Assembly (NCBI RefSeq): GCF_026153295.1
Contig: NZ_CP110615.1
Span: 868,001 to 932,000, forward strand
Direction of reading: 5' to 3'
DNA: 64,000 nt
Origin: Rhodococcus antarcticus
GTDB lineage: Bacteria; Actinomycetota; Actinomycetes; Mycobacteriales; Mycobacteriaceae
Of this stretch, positions 3,765-10,956 are shown piece after piece (the first letter of the stretch is position 1; every line of letters starts with the position of its first letter). The translations under genes were made by a program, and so were the position numbers. The notes beneath the pieces were generated by a model. It was given only the letters and a program-made list of their open reading frames with translations, ran no database searches and had not been told where the DNA came from.

Positions 3765-5336
3765 GTGCTGCACGTGCTCGACGCCGACGCCGTGCTCCGG
3801 TGGGCCGAGCAGAGCGTGGTGGTCCTCGCCGCGCACCGGTCCGAGGTGGACCGGCTGAACGTCTTCCCGGTGCCGGACGCGGACACCGGGAGCAACCTCC
3901 TCGCCACCAGCACGGCGGCCCTGGCCGGCTTGCTCCAGGTCCCCGAGCCGCGCACCGCTGCGACGGCCGCGGCGGGCTGGGCCCACGGGGCGGTGCTCGG
4001 GGCGAGGGGGAACTCCGGACTCATCCTGGCCCAGGTCCTCGTCGGCATCGCGGAGACGCTGGCCGACGCCGGTCCGTGCACCGGCCCGGTGCTCGCGGCC
4101 GCGCTCGCCCGCGCCGACGTCCTGGCCACCGCCGCGGTCAGCGAGCCCGCCCCGGGCACCGTGCTCACCGTGCTGCACCTCGTGGCCTCGGTGGCCGGGT
4201 CCGCGGCCGGCGCCGACCTCGCGTACGTGACCAGGGGGGCCTGCGCAGCCGCGGGCACCGCGGTGGCCGACACCACCGGTCAGCTGCCCGAGCTCGCGGC
4301 GGCCGGGGTGGTGGACGCTGGAGCGAGGGGACTGGAGCTCGTCCTGGCGGCCCTGCTCTCGGTGGTCGCCGACGCACCCCTCCCGGTGCCGGCCGATCCC
4401 GCGACCGCCCTCCGCCCCACCCCGGTCGCAGCGGTCGGGTACGAGGTGGTCTACCTCCTCTCCGACACCGACCCGCCCCGGGTTGCGGTGCTGCGCGCGG
4501 CCCTCGACTCGCTCGGCGACTCGGTGGTGCTGGCCGGCGACCCGTCGACCACGGTCACCGTCCACGTGCACGCCCGGGACGCGGGGGCGGCGCTCGAGGC
4601 GGGTCTGGCCGCCGGTCGCCCGCACCGCATCACGGTCGAGGTGCTCGCCGCGGTGCCGGCCGTCACCGTCGGCGGGGCCCGCCGGGCGGTCCTGTCCCTC
4701 GTGGTCGGGGCCGCCACCGCCGCGCTCGTGGCGGGCGAGGGCTCGGCCGTGCTGCGCGTGGACTCCGCCGTGGGTGCGCTCGGGGCCGTCCGGGCCGCGA
4801 TCGCCGCCACGGGGGCCGAGCGCGTCACCCTGCTGCCGAACGGGGCGGTGGATCGCGACGTCGTGACCGAGGCGGTGGCCGCCGCGCGGGACGCGGGTCA
4901 GCGCGTCACGGTGGTGCCGACCGCCTCGGCCGTGCAGGGCCTGGCTGCCCTGGCGGTGCACGACCCCACCCGGGATGACTCCGACGACGTGGTCGCCATG
5001 GCCGAGGCCGCGGCGGCCACCCGTCGGGGTTCGGTGCACGTGGCGACCGGACGCGGTCTCACGTGGGTGGGGCAGTGCGAGCCGGGTGACGTGCTCGCCC
5101 TGGTCGACGACGACGTGGCGCTCATCGAGAGCGACCAGGGTGCGGCGTGCGAGCGCCTGCTGGACCGGATGCTGGGTGGGGGCGGCGAGCTGGTCACGGT
5201 GCTGACCGGGGTGCAGGCCGAGCCCGGGCTCGCCGAGCGGCTCGAGGAGCACGTGCGCTCGGAGCACCGCGGGGTCGACGTGGTGGTCTACCCGTGCGAC
5301 CTCGCGGACGTGGTGCTCGTGCTGGGGGTGGAGTAG
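3765..5336 (+). CDS. DAK2-domain protein (FakA/YloV-like kinase)
   Basis: A 523-residue protein of the DhaL/FakA family. The N-terminal DAK2 domain has NVFPVPDADTGSNL, the Mg-nucleotide loop, and HGAVLGARGNSGLILAQ, the helix that caps the ATP. The C-terminal half resembles the middle and FakB-interacting parts of FakA, which phosphorylates fatty acids bound to a FakB/DegV partner. No fakB lies nearby, so fatty-acid kinase activity is inferred from family only. GTG 3765 follows AAGGGGAGG at 3748-3756; the longer frame back to 3678 lacks a ribosome site. Its stop overlaps the recG GTG, so the two are coupled as in mycobacteria. Confidence 0.88.
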   Translation: MLHVLDADAVLRWAEQSVVVLAAHRSEVDRLNVFPVPDADTGSNLLATSTAALAGLLQVPEPRTAATAAAGWAHGAVLGARGNSGLILAQVLVGIAETLADAGPCTGPVLAAALARADVLATAAVSEPAPGTVLTVLHLVASVAGSAAGADLAYVTRGACAAAGTAVADTTGQLPELAAAGVVDAGARGLELVLAALLSVVADAPLPVPADPATALRPTPVAAVGYEVVYLLSDTDPPRVAVLRAALDSLGDSVVLAGDPSTTVTVHVHARDAGAALEAGLAAGRPHRITVEVLAAVPAVTVGGARRAVLSLVVGAATAALVAGEGSAVLRVDSAVGALGAVRAAIAATGAERVTLLPNGAVDRDVVTEAVAAARDAGQRVTVVPTASAVQGLAALAVHDPTRDDSDDVVAMAEAAAATRRGSVHVATGRGLTWVGQCEPGDVLALVDDDVALIESDQGAACERLLDRMLGGGGELVTVLTGVQAEPGLAERLEEHVRSEHRGVDVVVYPCDLADVVLVLGVE

Positions 5337-7510
5337 TGGCCGCCCTCGCCGACGGGCTGGAGGGGGTGGTCGGGGCGAAGGCCGCGAAGGCGCTGTCCAC
5401 CGCGCTGGACCTGCAGACGGTGGGCGACCTGCTGCGGCACTACCCCCGCCGCTACGTCGAGCGCGGGAAGATGACCGTGCTGGGCGGTCTCGAGGTCGAC
5501 GAGCACGTCACGGTGCTGGCTCGCGTCGCGACGATCACCAGCCGCCGGATGCAGAACAGGCCGGGCACCATCCAGGAGCTGGTCATCACGGACGGCCGCG
5601 GGGAGCTGCGGTGCACGTTCTTCTCCCGTCCCTACCTGCTGCAGCAGCTGCCTGCGGGCACCGAGGCGCTCTTCGCCGGCCAGGTCAGCCAGTACCGACG
5701 CACCCTTCAGCTCACCCACCCGGACTTCCGCGTGCTTCCCGGGCACGACGACGCCCCGGACGCCGCCACCGCCGCGGAGATCGCCGACTTCGCCCGCCCG
5801 CTCATCTCGATCTACCCGGCCACGGCGAAGCTGCCGTCCTGGGACGTCTCGGCCTGCGTGCGCCAGGTGCTCGCCGTCCTGGACCCGCAGGACGACCCGC
5901 TGCCGGCCGCCCTGCGCGCGGAGCTCGGGCTCGTCGGTCTGGAGGCGGCCCTGCGGGGGGTGCACCGGCCGGACCGGCTGGAGGACGTGGAGGCGGCCAG
6001 CGAGCGGCTGCGCTTCGACGAGGCGATGGCCCTGCAGCTCGTCCTCGCCCAGCGCCGCCACGCCGACTCGGTACGCGTGGCCCCGGCCTGCCCGCCGGTC
6101 GCCGACGGGGTCGCCGCCGCGTTCGAGCACGCACTGCCCTTCCCGCTGACCGACGGCCAGCTCACCGTCGGCGCCGAGCTGAGCGCCGACCTGTCCCGCA
6201 CCCGGCCGATGAGCCGGCTCCTGCAGGGCGAGGTGGGCTCGGGCAAGACGGTGGTGGCGCTGCGCGCGATGCTGGCGGTGGTCGACGCCGGCCGACAGGC
6301 CGCGATGCTGGCCCCCACCGAGGTGCTCGCCGCCCAGCACGCCCGGTCGCTGCGCGCGATGCTGGGCCCGCTGGGCCGGGCGGGCGAGCTCGACGGGGCG
6401 GAGCGGGCCACCCGGGTCACCCTGCTCACCGGGTCCATGCCCACCGCGGCCAAGCGGCAGGCGCTGCTGGACATCGTGACCGGGGACGCCGGCATCGTCA
6501 TCGGCACCCACGCCCTGATCCAGGACAGGGTGTCCTTCCTCGACCTGGGCCTGGTCGTGGTCGACGAGCAGCACCGCTTCGGCGTGGAGCAGCGCGACCG
6601 GTTGCGCGACCGGGGCCGGGACGGCGCCACCCCGCACCTGCTGGTCATGACGGCCACGCCCATCCCGCGGACCGTGGCCATGACCGTCTTCGGCGACCTC
6701 GAGGTGTCGACCCTGCGCGAGCTGCCGCGCGGACGGGCACCCATCGCCAGCTCGGTCGTGCCGGTGGCCGAGAAGCCGGCCTGGCTGGACCGCGCCTGGG
6801 CCCGCATCACCGAGGAGGTGGCCGCGGGGCGACAGGCGTACGTGGTGTGCAGCCGGATCGGGGCCGACGACCCGCAGGAGGAGGCGGAGAACGAGAGCCC
6901 CACCCGGCCGGTGCTCGAGCTGGCCGAGGAGCTGGCCGCCGGCCCCCTGGCGCACCTGCGGCTGGAGGTGCTGCACGGGCGGATGCCGGGCGAGGAGAAG
7001 GACGCGGTGATGCAGGCCTTCGCCGCCGGGGAGATCGACGTGCTCGTGGCCACCACCGTCATCGAGGTCGGGGTGGACGTCCCGAACGCCACGACCATGG
7101 TGGTGATGGACGCCGAGCGCTTCGGGGTCAGCCAGCTGCACCAGCTGCGCGGGCGGGTGGGTCGTGGTGGGCACGCGGGGCTCTGCCTGCTGCACACCAC
7201 GTCCCCGGCCGGCGCAGCGAGCCGGGAGCGGCTGGCCGCGGTGGCCGCGACCTCGGACGGCTTCTCCCTCGCCCAGCTCGACCTGGCGCAGCGCCGGGAG
7301 GGTGACGTGCTCGGGGTGGCGCAGTCCGGCACCCGCTCCACCCTGCGGATGCTGAGCCTGCTGCGCGACGGTGACGTCATCGCCAGCGCCCGGGTGCAGG
7401 CCGCGCTGGTGGTGGACGCCGACCCCACGCTCGCGCTGCACCCGGGGCTCGCCGGCATGGTCACCTCGGCCCTGGACGGCGACCGGGTGGACTACCTCGA
7501 GAAGGCCTGA
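5336..7510 (+). CDS. recG: ATP-dependent DNA helicase RecG
   Basis: RecG rewinds stalled replication forks and migrates branched DNA. The 724-residue protein shows the N-terminal wedge/OB domain (with ARVATITSRRMQ near 62-75), Walker A GEVGSGKT near residue 299, the DExH box DEQH near 408-411 followed by RFGVEQR, TATPIPRT, and motif VI QLRGRVGRGG near 603. GTG 5336 overlaps the TAG stop of the DAK2 gene. Its stop at 7510 lies only 7 bp from the convergent stop of the 7518-7958 gene, so transcripts from both sides must meet here. Confidence 0.97.
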   Translation: MAALADGLEGVVGAKAAKALSTALDLQTVGDLLRHYPRRYVERGKMTVLGGLEVDEHVTVLARVATITSRRMQNRPGTIQELVITDGRGELRCTFFSRPYLLQQLPAGTEALFAGQVSQYRRTLQLTHPDFRVLPGHDDAPDAATAAEIADFARPLISIYPATAKLPSWDVSACVRQVLAVLDPQDDPLPAALRAELGLVGLEAALRGVHRPDRLEDVEAASERLRFDEAMALQLVLAQRRHADSVRVAPACPPVADGVAAAFEHALPFPLTDGQLTVGAELSADLSRTRPMSRLLQGEVGSGKTVVALRAMLAVVDAGRQAAMLAPTEVLAAQHARSLRAMLGPLGRAGELDGAERATRVTLLTGSMPTAAKRQALLDIVTGDAGIVIGTHALIQDRVSFLDLGLVVVDEQHRFGVEQRDRLRDRGRDGATPHLLVMTATPIPRTVAMTVFGDLEVSTLRELPRGRAPIASSVVPVAEKPAWLDRAWARITEEVAAGRQAYVVCSRIGADDPQEEAENESPTRPVLELAEELAAGPLAHLRLEVLHGRMPGEEKDAVMQAFAAGEIDVLVATTVIEVGVDVPNATTMVVMDAERFGVSQLHQLRGRVGRGGHAGLCLLHTTSPAGAASRERLAAVAATSDGFSLAQLDLAQRREGDVLGVAQSGTRSTLRMLSLLRDGDVIASARVQAALVVDADPTLALHPGLAGMVTSALDGDRVDYLEKA

Positions 7511-7517
7511 GCCCGGC

Positions 7518-7958
7518 TCAGGACAGCAGGACCACCAGCCCGACGGCCCCGCAGCACCCCGCCGCCGCCGCCGCGAGCAGCCCCACCCGGGCGGTCCTGG
7601 TGCGGACCCGCGCCGCGGCGGCGAGGAGCAGCAGGCCGGAGCCCAGCCCGAGCAGCAGGGCGGTGCCCGGGGGCGGCGCGGCCGGGGCGGGCACCACCTG
7701 CTCCACCGTGCGGGCGTCGTAGCGGCCGGGCAGCACCATGACCAGCGCGCCCGCGGCGTCGCGCTCCACCGACACCGTCGAGCCGGCGGCGGCGGCCGCG
7801 AGGATGTCGCGGTCCGACGGGGCGGGGACGATCTCGTCCGGAGCGGCGGCCACCACCTCGGCCCCCGGGGCGGACACCGCCGCCAGGATCGCCAGCGACC
7901 CCGTGCCCACCCCGCTGAGCAGCAGCACCACCACGACGAGGAGGTCGGATCGGGTCAC
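7518..7958 (-). CDS. Small membrane protein, last gene of the P450 cluster
   Basis: I do not recognise this 146-residue protein. It has an N-terminal membrane segment or signal anchor (about residues 5-28), a hydrophilic region of about 60 residues (with PGRYDARTVEQVV) and two more hydrophobic segments at the C-terminus (about 92-112 and 120-143). The GTG start overlaps the P450 stop as GTGA, so translation is coupled. The topology, N-terminal anchor plus outside loop plus C-terminal hairpin, is shared with the other small membrane proteins of the cluster. No function can be assigned. Confidence 0.75.
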   Translation of the reverse strand: MTRSDLLVVVVLLLSGVGTGSLAILAAVSAPGAEVVAAAPDEIVPAPSDRDILAAAAAGSTVSVERDAAGALVMVLPGRYDARTVEQVVPAPAAPPPGTALLLGLGSGLLLLAAAARVRTRTARVGLLAAAAAGCCGAVGLVVLLS

Positions 7959-9271
7959 CCGACGAGCGTGCCCAGGCGCACGGGCAGTCGCTCCCACCCG
8001 CGCAGCACCCGCGTCGGCCGGCGCTGGGCGCCCGGTGCCAGGGCCAGGTCCGGGAACCGCTCGAACAGGGCGCGCAGCCCCACCTCGCCCTCGATGCGGG
8101 CCAGCGCGGCCCCCAGGCAGAAGTGCCGGCCCGCGGAGAAGGACAGGTGCTCCCGGGCGTTGGCGCGGTCCACGTCGAACACGTGCGGGTCGGTGAACAC
8201 CGCCGGGTCGCGGTTGGCCCCGGCCAGCATGGTGGCCACGAGGTGGCCCTTGCGCACGGCCACCCCCTGGACCGAGGTGTCGCGCACCGCCACCCGGGCC
8301 GTCACCTGCACGGGCGACTCGTGACGCAGGACCTCCTCCACGGCGTTGCCCCAGCGCTCGGGCTCGGCGCGCAGGCGGGCCAGCTGGTCGGGGTGGCGCA
8401 GCAGCAGCTCGGTGCCGCTGCCGATCAGGTTGACCGTGGTCTCGAACCCGGCGGCGAGCAGCAGGCCGGCCGTGGCGCGCAGCTCGTCCTCGGACAGCCG
8501 TCGTCCGTCGTCGGTGGCCACCACGAGCTGGCTGAGCAGGTCGGTGCCGGGGTTCTCGCGCAGCCGCTGCAGGTGGGTGCCCAGCCAGGCGTCGAAGGCA
8601 CGCAGGCTCGTGTCCACGTGGCTGAACTCCGACCAGCTCAGCCCCACGTCCAGGCTGGGTGCCGCGCCCGCGCCGAAGGTGAGCACCTGGGGGCGGTCGG
8701 CCTCGGGGACACCGAGGATGTCCGAGATCACGGTGAGGGGCAGCAGGGTGGCGTAGCGCTCCACCAGGTCGACCTCGGAGGTGGTGCTGGCCGCGAGCTC
8801 GTCGAGCAGCCGGCCCGCGGTGTGGGTGACGTCCCCGCGCAGGGCCTCGACGGCTCGGGCGGAGAACACGCGGGAGACCAGGCGGCGGTAGCGGGCGTGC
8901 TGCTCCCCGTCCACGGCCAGCAGCGAGGGCGGCTCCACCGGGTGCAGCACGTGCTGGCCGGCCGACCACTCGGCGAGGCGCGCGACCAGCCCGGACAGCG
9001 GGGTCTCGGGGGGCCCGGTGCGGAAGTCGTCGCTGCGCAGCACCTCCTTGCAGGCGGCGTGGTTCGTGCTGACCCAGGACAGTCGTCCGCGCAGCAGGGG
9101 CCCGGCGGCGCGGACGGTGTCGTGCAGCGCGTACGGGTGGGCCCGGGTGTCCGCGTCCATGATGAGCAGCGCCTGCGGGTCGCCCTGCCGGGCTGCCCGG
9201 GTGAGCACCCGCCGGGCCAGGCCGTGCTGCAAGGTCCACCGCACCGCTCTGCGCGCGTTCATGCGCGCCAT
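7955..9271 (-). CDS. Cytochrome P450
   Basis: A 438-residue class I bacterial P450, a soluble heme monooxygenase that needs ferredoxin partners. The I-helix reads AGFETT (274-279), the K-helix ExxR is EVLR (313-316), and the heme loop is FSAGRHFCLG with the ligand Cys385. The N-terminus lacks a membrane anchor. No ferredoxin or reductase gene is nearby, so electrons must come from elsewhere. It is embedded between small membrane-protein genes, overlapping its upstream neighbour by 13 nt and the downstream one by 4 nt. ATG 9271 has GGGAGCAGG before it; ATG 9262 would give an ATGA overlap. The substrate is unknown. Confidence 0.95.
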   Translation of the reverse strand: MARMNARRAVRWTLQHGLARRVLTRAARQGDPQALLIMDADTRAHPYALHDTVRAAGPLLRGRLSWVSTNHAACKEVLRSDDFRTGPPETPLSGLVARLAEWSAGQHVLHPVEPPSLLAVDGEQHARYRRLVSRVFSARAVEALRGDVTHTAGRLLDELAASTTSEVDLVERYATLLPLTVISDILGVPEADRPQVLTFGAGAAPSLDVGLSWSEFSHVDTSLRAFDAWLGTHLQRLRENPGTDLLSQLVVATDDGRRLSEDELRATAGLLLAAGFETTVNLIGSGTELLLRHPDQLARLRAEPERWGNAVEEVLRHESPVQVTARVAVRDTSVQGVAVRKGHLVATMLAGANRDPAVFTDPHVFDVDRANAREHLSFSAGRHFCLGAALARIEGEVGLRALFERFPDLALAPGAQRRPTRVLRGWERLPVRLGTLVG

Positions 9272-9780
9272 CCTGCTCCCGCGTCGTGCCGGCGCACGAG
9301 GAGCCCTCCGGCCACCACCAGCACGCAGGCGGCCACGAGCGGGGCCACCCCGCCCCCCGAGAGGCCGACCACCAGCGTGGTGGCCCCCAGCACGCCGGCA
9401 CCGGCGGCGACGAGTCCCCCGGCGAACCGTCGCAGGACGGTGCCGAGCGCGAGGACGAGCGCCGCAACCCCGAGCGACTGGGGGGCTCCCGGCGGCGCGG
9501 CGGGCACGTCCTGGGCCAGGAACAGGGACGAGCCGTACGCGGAGTCGCGCTGGTTGGCCTGCAGGAGGGCCAGGGGGGCCACCGCTCCGGCCGGACCCTC
9601 GGCGTAGCGGCGCGACGAGGGGGCGCCGAGCTCCGCGGACGGGACGAGGACGGGGCCGGTGGCCTGCGGCTGCGGCACCCCGGTGTGGTCGTTGGTGGCG
9701 AGGGCCGTGACGCCGGCCAGCACGGCCCCGGCGAGCAGCAGCGCGACCCCGAGCAGGGCGAGACGGTCAGGCCGGCGCAC
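9259..9780 (-). CDS. Small membrane protein upstream of the P450
   Basis: An unrecognised 173-residue protein. Residues 8-28 form a signal anchor, residues 29-97 a hydrophilic loop containing SSRRYAEGP and LLQANQRDSAYGSSLFLAQD, and the rest holds two or three membrane segments before a short basic tail (VRRHDAGAGW). The predicted orientation puts the loop outside the cell. It overlaps both neighbours (14 nt and 13 nt). I see no catalytic motif, lipobox or cysteine. Confidence 0.75.
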   Translation of the reverse strand: MRRPDRLALLGVALLLAGAVLAGVTALATNDHTGVPQPQATGPVLVPSAELGAPSSRRYAEGPAGAVAPLALLQANQRDSAYGSSLFLAQDVPAAPPGAPQSLGVAALVLALGTVLRRFAGGLVAAGAGVLGATTLVVGLSGGGVAPLVAACVLVVAGGLLVRRHDAGAGWRA

Positions 9781-10378
9781 CGCGCACCCGCTCCCGGCGC
9801 AGCAGCACCGCGCCCAGGCCCGCCGCCAGCCCGCTGGCGGCCAGGACGGGCGACCACCAGCCGAGCACCCCCACCACGGCGGTCACCGCGGCCAGCCCAC
9901 CGGCGGCGAGAACCGCCGTGCCCGCGGCTGCGCGCGGGGTCCACCGTCGCCCGTGCCGTCCCGCCCCGCCGAGCACCGCCGCCACCAGGCCCAGCCCCGC
10001 CAGCGCCGCGAGCACCGGCCGCAGCCCGTCGCCCGCCCCGCCGGCCGGGCTCAGGCTGGAGTCGGTCCGCACGTCCGGGCCGGTCACGCTGGAGAGCAGG
10101 GTGCCGTTGCGCAGGGACTGGGCGGCGCGGAGCTGGGAGAGGTAGCTCTCGGTGAATCCGAAGCCCGGCACCACGGCCGGGCCGTCGCCGGGGCCGGCGA
10201 ACACCCCGGAGGTCCGCCCCGTCGCCGCGTCCAGCACGACCAGCGTCCACCCGGGCGAGGCGTTCGGGGCCGTGGTGGTCACGGAGTCCCCCGGGGGACC
10301 CACCGCGGTGGCGGCCACCCAGCCGGACCCGGCCACCGCCGAGACGAGCAGGGCGGTGGCCAGCAGCCGAGAGCTCAC
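9767..10378 (-). CDS. Small membrane protein, second gene of the P450 cluster
   Basis: A 203-residue protein of unknown function. The N-terminus VSSRLLATALLVSAVAGSGW is a signal anchor, followed by a roughly 95-residue extracytoplasmic region with LVVLDAATGRTSGVF and ESYLSQLRAAQSLRNGTLL, then hydrophobic segments at about 125-145 and 155-195 and a basic tail. GTG 10378 is chosen because it overlaps the preceding stop as GTGA; the open frame upstream of it lies inside the previous gene. Composition and topology resemble its neighbours. Confidence 0.72.
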   Translation of the reverse strand: MSSRLLATALLVSAVAGSGWVAATAVGPPGDSVTTTAPNASPGWTLVVLDAATGRTSGVFAGPGDGPAVVPGFGFTESYLSQLRAAQSLRNGTLLSSVTGPDVRTDSSLSPAGGAGDGLRPVLAALAGLGLVAAVLGGAGRHGRRWTPRAAAGTAVLAAGGLAAVTAVVGVLGWWSPVLAASGLAAGLGAVLLRRERVRGAPA

Positions 10379-10956
10379 GGCGAGCTCGGTGTCACGGGCT
10401 GCCACACGGCCAGCGGGGGAGGCGGCACCCGGGCCGGGCGGGGGGTGCGACGGGGGGCGAGCGCAGCCACCGCCGCCAGCACGCCGGACGCGACGAGCAG
10501 CCAGGGTCCCGCCGACCCGGTCAGCACCACCTGGCCGGGCACGACCTCGACGAGCACGTCGCGCAGCCGTGCCGCCCGGGCGGCGGTGTGCAGCACCACG
10601 AGCACGCCGGTGGCCACCAGCCACCCCGCTGCCAGCACGGCGGTCGCCGGGGACCGGCCGACGCGCAGCCGCAGCGCGACGGCCACCCCGAGCAGCACCA
10701 CTCCCGCCAGCACCACCCACCCGAAGGCGGGAACGGCGCCGGCGCTCACCGTCCGCGCACCGGTGCCGTCGGTGCTGACCAGGTCGCCGAACCAGCCGGA
10801 GGTCGCCGTGGCGCTGCCGGTGCCGTCGGCGGAGCGGGTGGTGGCGACGGGACTCGCCAGGGCCAGCAGGGCGAGCACCGCAGCGAGGACGATCGCGCCC
10901 GTGCCGAGGTCGCGCCGGGCGGCCGGCTCCGGGGTCGGCGTCGCGGGGTCCGACAC
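10375..10956 (-). CDS. Multi-pass membrane protein, first gene of the P450 cluster
   Basis: An unrecognised 193-residue protein with a short charged N-terminus, then about four hydrophobic segments (near 21-40, 72-92, 98-117 and 147-165) and a Pro-rich cytoplasmic-looking tail ending LAVWQPVTPSSP. The loop after the first segment (SADGTGSATATSGWFGDLV) probably lies outside. GTG 10956 follows GGAGGGG by 8-9 nt. It heads five genes that overlap without a gap down to 7518, and starts 40 nt after the CoA-transferase stop, so it may share that transcript. Confidence 0.72.
   Translation of the reverse strand: MSDPATPTPEPAARRDLGTGAIVLAAVLALLALASPVATTRSADGTGSATATSGWFGDLVSTDGTGARTVSAGAVPAFGWVVLAGVVLLGVAVALRLRVGRSPATAVLAAGWLVATGVLVVLHTAARAARLRDVLVEVVPGQVVLTGSAGPWLLVASGVLAAVAALAPRRTPRPARVPPPPLAVWQPVTPSSP

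Follow-up and report, generated by a model that had tools for sequence, protein, structure and literature searches.

A probable lineage-specific operon combining a cytochrome P450, an AtuA-CaiB pair and four orphan membrane proteins at a variable site in Rhodococcus antarcticus

The interval between recG and rsmD in Rhodococcus antarcticus is occupied by an unbroken run of seven minus-strand genes, namely AtuA, CaiB, A, B, C, P450 and D, where A to D encode small membrane proteins. The explanation to which we give slightly better than an even chance is that this block is a lineage-specific operon located at a variable site, made up of two separable enzyme modules and four orphan membrane proteins which are probably anciently paralogous. 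These four proteins of one layout are the sole unusual part of the block, and their putative link with the P450 was observed in one genome only. Since many relatives have the same P450 without these proteins, the genes look as if they had been brought together locally in one lineage and do not resemble a conserved new machine.

Organization of the gene block

The window (the whole stretch of 64,000 nucleotides that was analysed) belongs to a 3.94 Mb genome of high GC content (75% GC). No second species of the source genus was found among the relatives searched, where the closest ones are other genera of the family; the nearest of these is referred to here as g17. The five open reading frames A, B, C, P450 and D were found at the coordinates originally predicted, all on the minus strand (Table 1), and the reported overlaps of 4 nt (A/B), 14 nt (B/C), 13 nt (C/P450) and 4 nt (P450/D) were read again from the sequence. 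The C/P450 overlap shortens to 4 nt if the P450 starts at its second ATG. The AtuA-CaiB pair, which was absent from the original prediction, extends the block upstream with a 40-nt gap between CaiB and A and a 4-nt overlap between AtuA and CaiB.

Overlapping same-strand neighbours were observed in 15 of the 48 pairs in the window, the present block included, and overlap taken alone is therefore weak evidence for a complex. A scan for promoter and terminator signals, of a kind ill-suited to such genomes, gave none in the block, and no RNA families were detected in it.

Table 1. Genes of the block and of its borders, with the basis of each assignment
Feature	Length	Position	Strand	Basis	Remarks
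AtuA-family protein	604 aa	12517..14331	-	PF07287 E=3e-155, PF23544	First gene of the probable operon
Family III CoA-transferase (CaiB-like)	507 aa	10997..12520	-	PF02515 E=9e-38	
Orphan membrane protein A	193 aa	10375..10956	-	Coding score, GC by codon position	
Orphan membrane protein B	203 aa	9767..10378	-	Coding score, GC by codon position	
Orphan membrane protein C	173 aa	9259..9780	-	Coding score, GC by codon position	
Cytochrome P450	438 aa	7955..9271	-	PF00067 E=3e-29, motifs, clade	Second ATG at 9262 may be the start
Orphan membrane protein D	146 aa	7518..7958	-	Coding score, GC by codon position	Last gene, convergent with recG
recG		5336..7510	+	RecG, DEAD/Helicase_C domains	Left border of the variable interval, outside the operon
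rsmD		from 14395	+		Other border of the interval; divergent from AtuA, 63 nt between starts

Coding status and homologue searches

The GC content at codon positions one, two and three was observed to be 0.78-0.86, 0.51-0.67 and 0.91-0.98 respectively across all seven genes, where position 2 is the lowest. A codon-based score preferred each of the seven genes over the frames that overlap it; this score was trained on clear genes, with P450, CaiB and AtuA in the training set and A-D outside it. The opposite strand is rich in long spurious open reading frames, but these score worse. The coding GC pattern together with the strong coding scores therefore indicates that A-D and the P450 are not chance open reading frames of a 75% GC genome. 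That A-D are not genes but merely open frames in high-GC DNA would agree with their lack of homologues and with the frequency of spurious long frames in the window; we nevertheless consider it extremely improbable, since the codon-position GC and coding scores of A-D match those of neighbouring real genes and each of the four is laid out like a membrane protein.

The earlier statement that A-D fit no family was borne out, as no match was found in Pfam, NCBIfam, PHROGs or PADLOC. Nothing fell below E=0.01 in the four libraries and the best match had an E-value of 0.012 over 25 residues. Genome searches yielded no homologue of C in 100 relatives, none of B or D in 250 genomes of the order and, for A, weak matches only and no convincing homologue in about 300 genomes of the class. 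A concatenated A+B+C+D query found nothing credible in the two g17 genomes or in the samples of the family and the phylum, where only three candidates per genome were scored for the last two. Furthermore, no credible second copy of A-D was found elsewhere in their own genome, searches of A and B against plasmids gave nothing and neither did a search of B against virus contigs. Where weak matches (E-values of 1e-3 to 1e-5) were inspected, they turned out to sit in an unrelated gene or in another frame.

Another possibility is that A-D are strongly diverged members of known membrane families which are missed by profile searches at such a composition. The Ala/Leu/Val-rich sequence at 75% GC weakens these searches, and the single-sequence AlphaFold models of B (pLDDT 48) and C (pLDDT 57) are not confident and too poor for a fold search, so that the folds are not comparable. 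Set against this is the outcome of the profile searches, in which none of the four libraries returned a family below the threshold given above, and we regard such hidden membership as unlikely.

Layout and kinship of the membrane proteins

From hydropathy, A, B and C were each found to have four hydrophobic segments and D three, with loops of 38 (A), 98 (B), 72 (C) and 75 (D) residues. The common layout consists of an N-terminal segment, the loop and then a cluster of segments, which numbers three in A, B and C and two in D. The shared topology first noticed in these proteins stood up to comparison with other loci, where the layout was observed in one of 24 comparable proteins (120-230 aa with 3-5 segments, taken from 840 other genes), the criterion being set after the pattern was seen. 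The lone other protein with this layout is a fragment of an 8-helix protein which is cut by the locus end. The shared topology is probably real and more than chance, as judged by hydropathy only and with a post hoc criterion.

The basic residues of A-D gather close to the N-terminus and in the stretch separating the second segment from the third, and this placement puts the loops outside according to the positive-inside rule. A-D probably reside in the cytoplasmic membrane and expose their loops on its outer face, a reading made from hydropathy and from our own assessment of the positive charges and not with a trained predictor. Cysteines are few in these proteins and no recognisable redox-metal motif was found.

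The pairwise sequence similarity that would mark A-D as one paralogous family was not observed, but the common layout was, by hydropathy. The comparison of C with D gave a BLASTP E-value of 31, and the pairwise scores among A-D did not exceed the best scores against unrelated membrane proteins, except for C-D when seen from the side of C. Because A-D do not resemble one another convincingly more than they resemble unrelated membrane proteins, common descent is drawn from layout and adjacency only, and on these two grounds A-D most likely go back to a single gene that was copied in tandem and whose copies diverged long ago.

The cytochrome P450 and its relatives

The P450 was confirmed to be complete, with the heme-binding Cys385 (FSAGRHFCLG), AGFETT at 274 and ExxR at 313. 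Its score of 102.5 bits against PF00067, for which the cut-off is 22.8, places it in the superfamily, and its sequence relatives with a solved structure include EryF, PikC, PksS and enzymes like them. Hydropathy shows no membrane anchor. As had been noted before, ferredoxin and reductase are missing: no such domain was detected by profile search in the block genes or recG, and the operon contains no ferredoxin or reductase gene that would give the P450 its own redox partner. The ferredoxin-like domain of AtuA (PF23544) is, as we take it from the domain name, named after a fold and is not an iron-sulfur protein.

By convention, a P450 is assigned to a CYP family when it is at least about 40% identical to a named member. 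The P450 of the window is 46% identical to CYP140A7, the P450 of the mycolactone plasmid, over 98% of the length, and families other than CYP140 may be nearer. The plasmid enzyme acts on mycolactone by hydroxylating its acyl side chain (PMC2569948). Relatives were found at 66-69% identity in g17 and at 52-60% identity in many genomes of the family, in Amycolatopsis and in Nocardioides. In the tree, the window P450 is placed next to the g17 pair inside a supported clade of 44. It is an ordinary bacterial enzyme, soluble and complete, and its clade, which lies near CYP140, is widespread in actinobacteria. The CYP140-type P450s (CYP140A1 of M. tuberculosis and CYP140A7) and the related actinobacterial clade have the P450 fold and motifs in common with it; they differ in that the four membrane-protein genes beside the window P450 were seen in no relative examined.

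The original prediction proposed a dedicated P450-membrane assembly, a proposal that relatives having the P450 without the membrane genes would contradict. This was the situation in every clade relative examined, as all 43 other members of the clade, the nearest genus included, were found to be without an A-D-like neighbour; a conserved P450-membrane system, with A-D-like genes beside the P450 in relatives, was thus observed in 0 of 43. This argues that A-D are dispensable for catalysis by P450s of this kind, although the source lineage could have added them. The neighbours of the P450 in other genomes vary by lineage, and in g17 an acyl-CoA oxidase is located 35 nt downstream of it.

The AtuA-CaiB pair and the variable interval

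The AtuA-CaiB pair was found in six relatives (L106-L111), where it is 57-70% identical to the window pair and occurs without P450 or A-D. These pairs resemble that of the window in the 4-nt overlap, which is present in several of them, but they differ in having a LysR-type gene alongside (named from sequence) whereas the window copy has no regulator. The set of AtuA, CaiB-like and LysR-type genes is sporadic in the family.

In relatives, the recG-rsmD interval was observed to be empty, or to hold a putative pyruvate carboxylase gene or other genes, and in the nearest genus a long NRPS-like gene is located there together with several more genes, all of opposite strand (all names were read from the sequence). 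Since the P450 and the AtuA-CaiB pair are separate elsewhere and the interval is variable, the block seems to have been assembled in the source lineage from parts that are separate in other genomes.

Proposed function and alternative explanations

In the operon that we favour, the tight overlaps would lead to co-expression and translational coupling of the block genes. The P450 would probably take its electrons from a ferredoxin and a reductase encoded elsewhere and would hydroxylate a hydrophobic acyl-, polyketide- or terpenoid-like substrate, while AtuA and CaiB would probably handle the CoA ester of this substrate or of a related compound. A-D would probably act as a small membrane module, for example one that lodges or moves the hydrophobic substrate or product. 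Judged from gene neighbours, AtuA and CaiB as well as the acyl-CoA oxidase of g17 would fit a substrate of lipid or terpenoid-like nature; the position of this oxidase by the P450 and the identity to the mycolactone-plasmid enzyme were both counted in favour of this explanation. The identities of the P450 and the AtuA-CaiB pair are supported by tools; co-transcription, the redox partners, the substrate class and a joint function are what we infer.

A-D could also be functionally unrelated to the P450, as lineage-specific membrane proteins of the variable site which became interleaved by insertion. The variable content of the recG-rsmD interval, the orphan nature of A-D and the occurrence of the P450 and AtuA-CaiB as independent units all agree with this, and we see it as a possible though not a likely account; random insertion should seldom leave overlaps of 4 to 14 nt on the flanks of a P450. 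That the P450 is surrounded by four membrane proteins of one layout, and that the junctions between the genes overlap, speaks for the assembly first proposed, in which a hetero-oligomer of A-D would dock the P450 at the membrane and deliver or remove a lipid substrate. The rarity of the A-D layout by chance and the CoA- and lipid-type enzymes upstream point the same way. However, the P450s of the 43 relatives do without such proteins, that of the window is without a membrane anchor and overlaps are frequent in the window, and such an assembly is quite unlikely. Very unlikely in our view is the more specific proposal that A-D represent a fold of small membrane proteins not described before, present in four diverged copies which jointly serve as a membrane platform for one P450 in substrate lodging, transfer or docking. 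To our knowledge, a membrane-platform partner has not been described for bacterial P450s. Our searches of the literature on AtuA with a CoA-transferase and on P450s with small membrane proteins found nothing on the gene arrangement seen here.

The substrates of soluble bacterial P450s are often hydrophobic and their delivery is poorly understood. If A-D work with the P450, they would be membrane partners of a kind that is new for these enzymes. If they are unlinked to it, the locus would still be a clear case of same-layout orphan membrane genes inside a metabolic operon, and it would be useful for asking how orphan membrane genes arise in high-GC genomes.

Other P450 and membrane-gene neighbourhoods

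A DUF998 membrane protein adjoins the P450 in a further genus of the family (g6) and in several Amycolatopsis. DUF998-type genes beside the same P450 clade were observed in two families, at L013, L014, L016 and L021 in g6 and at L034, L035, L038, L040, L045 and L047 in Amycolatopsis, where confirmation with the PF06197 profile covers L014 and L038 only. A membrane gene next to this P450 is thus a neighbourhood that recurs, and it has no relation to A-D. The loci are like the window in that a P450 of the same clade lies by a small membrane-protein gene; they differ in having a single membrane gene, which in g6 is divergent and without overlap, and A-D do not match PF06197.

At most Amycolatopsis loci (L032-L034, L036-L040 and L047), a 4-nt overlap joins the P450 to a gene of about 210-217 aa, and the one that was scanned (L032) encodes a TetR-type regulator. 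The P450 at L029:1501-2790 has an in-frame TAG inside the match and may be a pseudogene or the result of a sequencing error.

The small membrane proteins found in the recG-rsmD interval of g17 were considered as possible relatives of A-D and rejected, as they have 122-145 aa, are without the long loop and gave no match. In one genome of this genus (G016), the opposite-strand block in this interval (L151:2821-11088) includes an NRPS-like gene of 1312 aa. Two similar genes of 248 and 275 aa flank an 8-helix protein in this block, and the block has two small membrane proteins in common with a second genome, G042.
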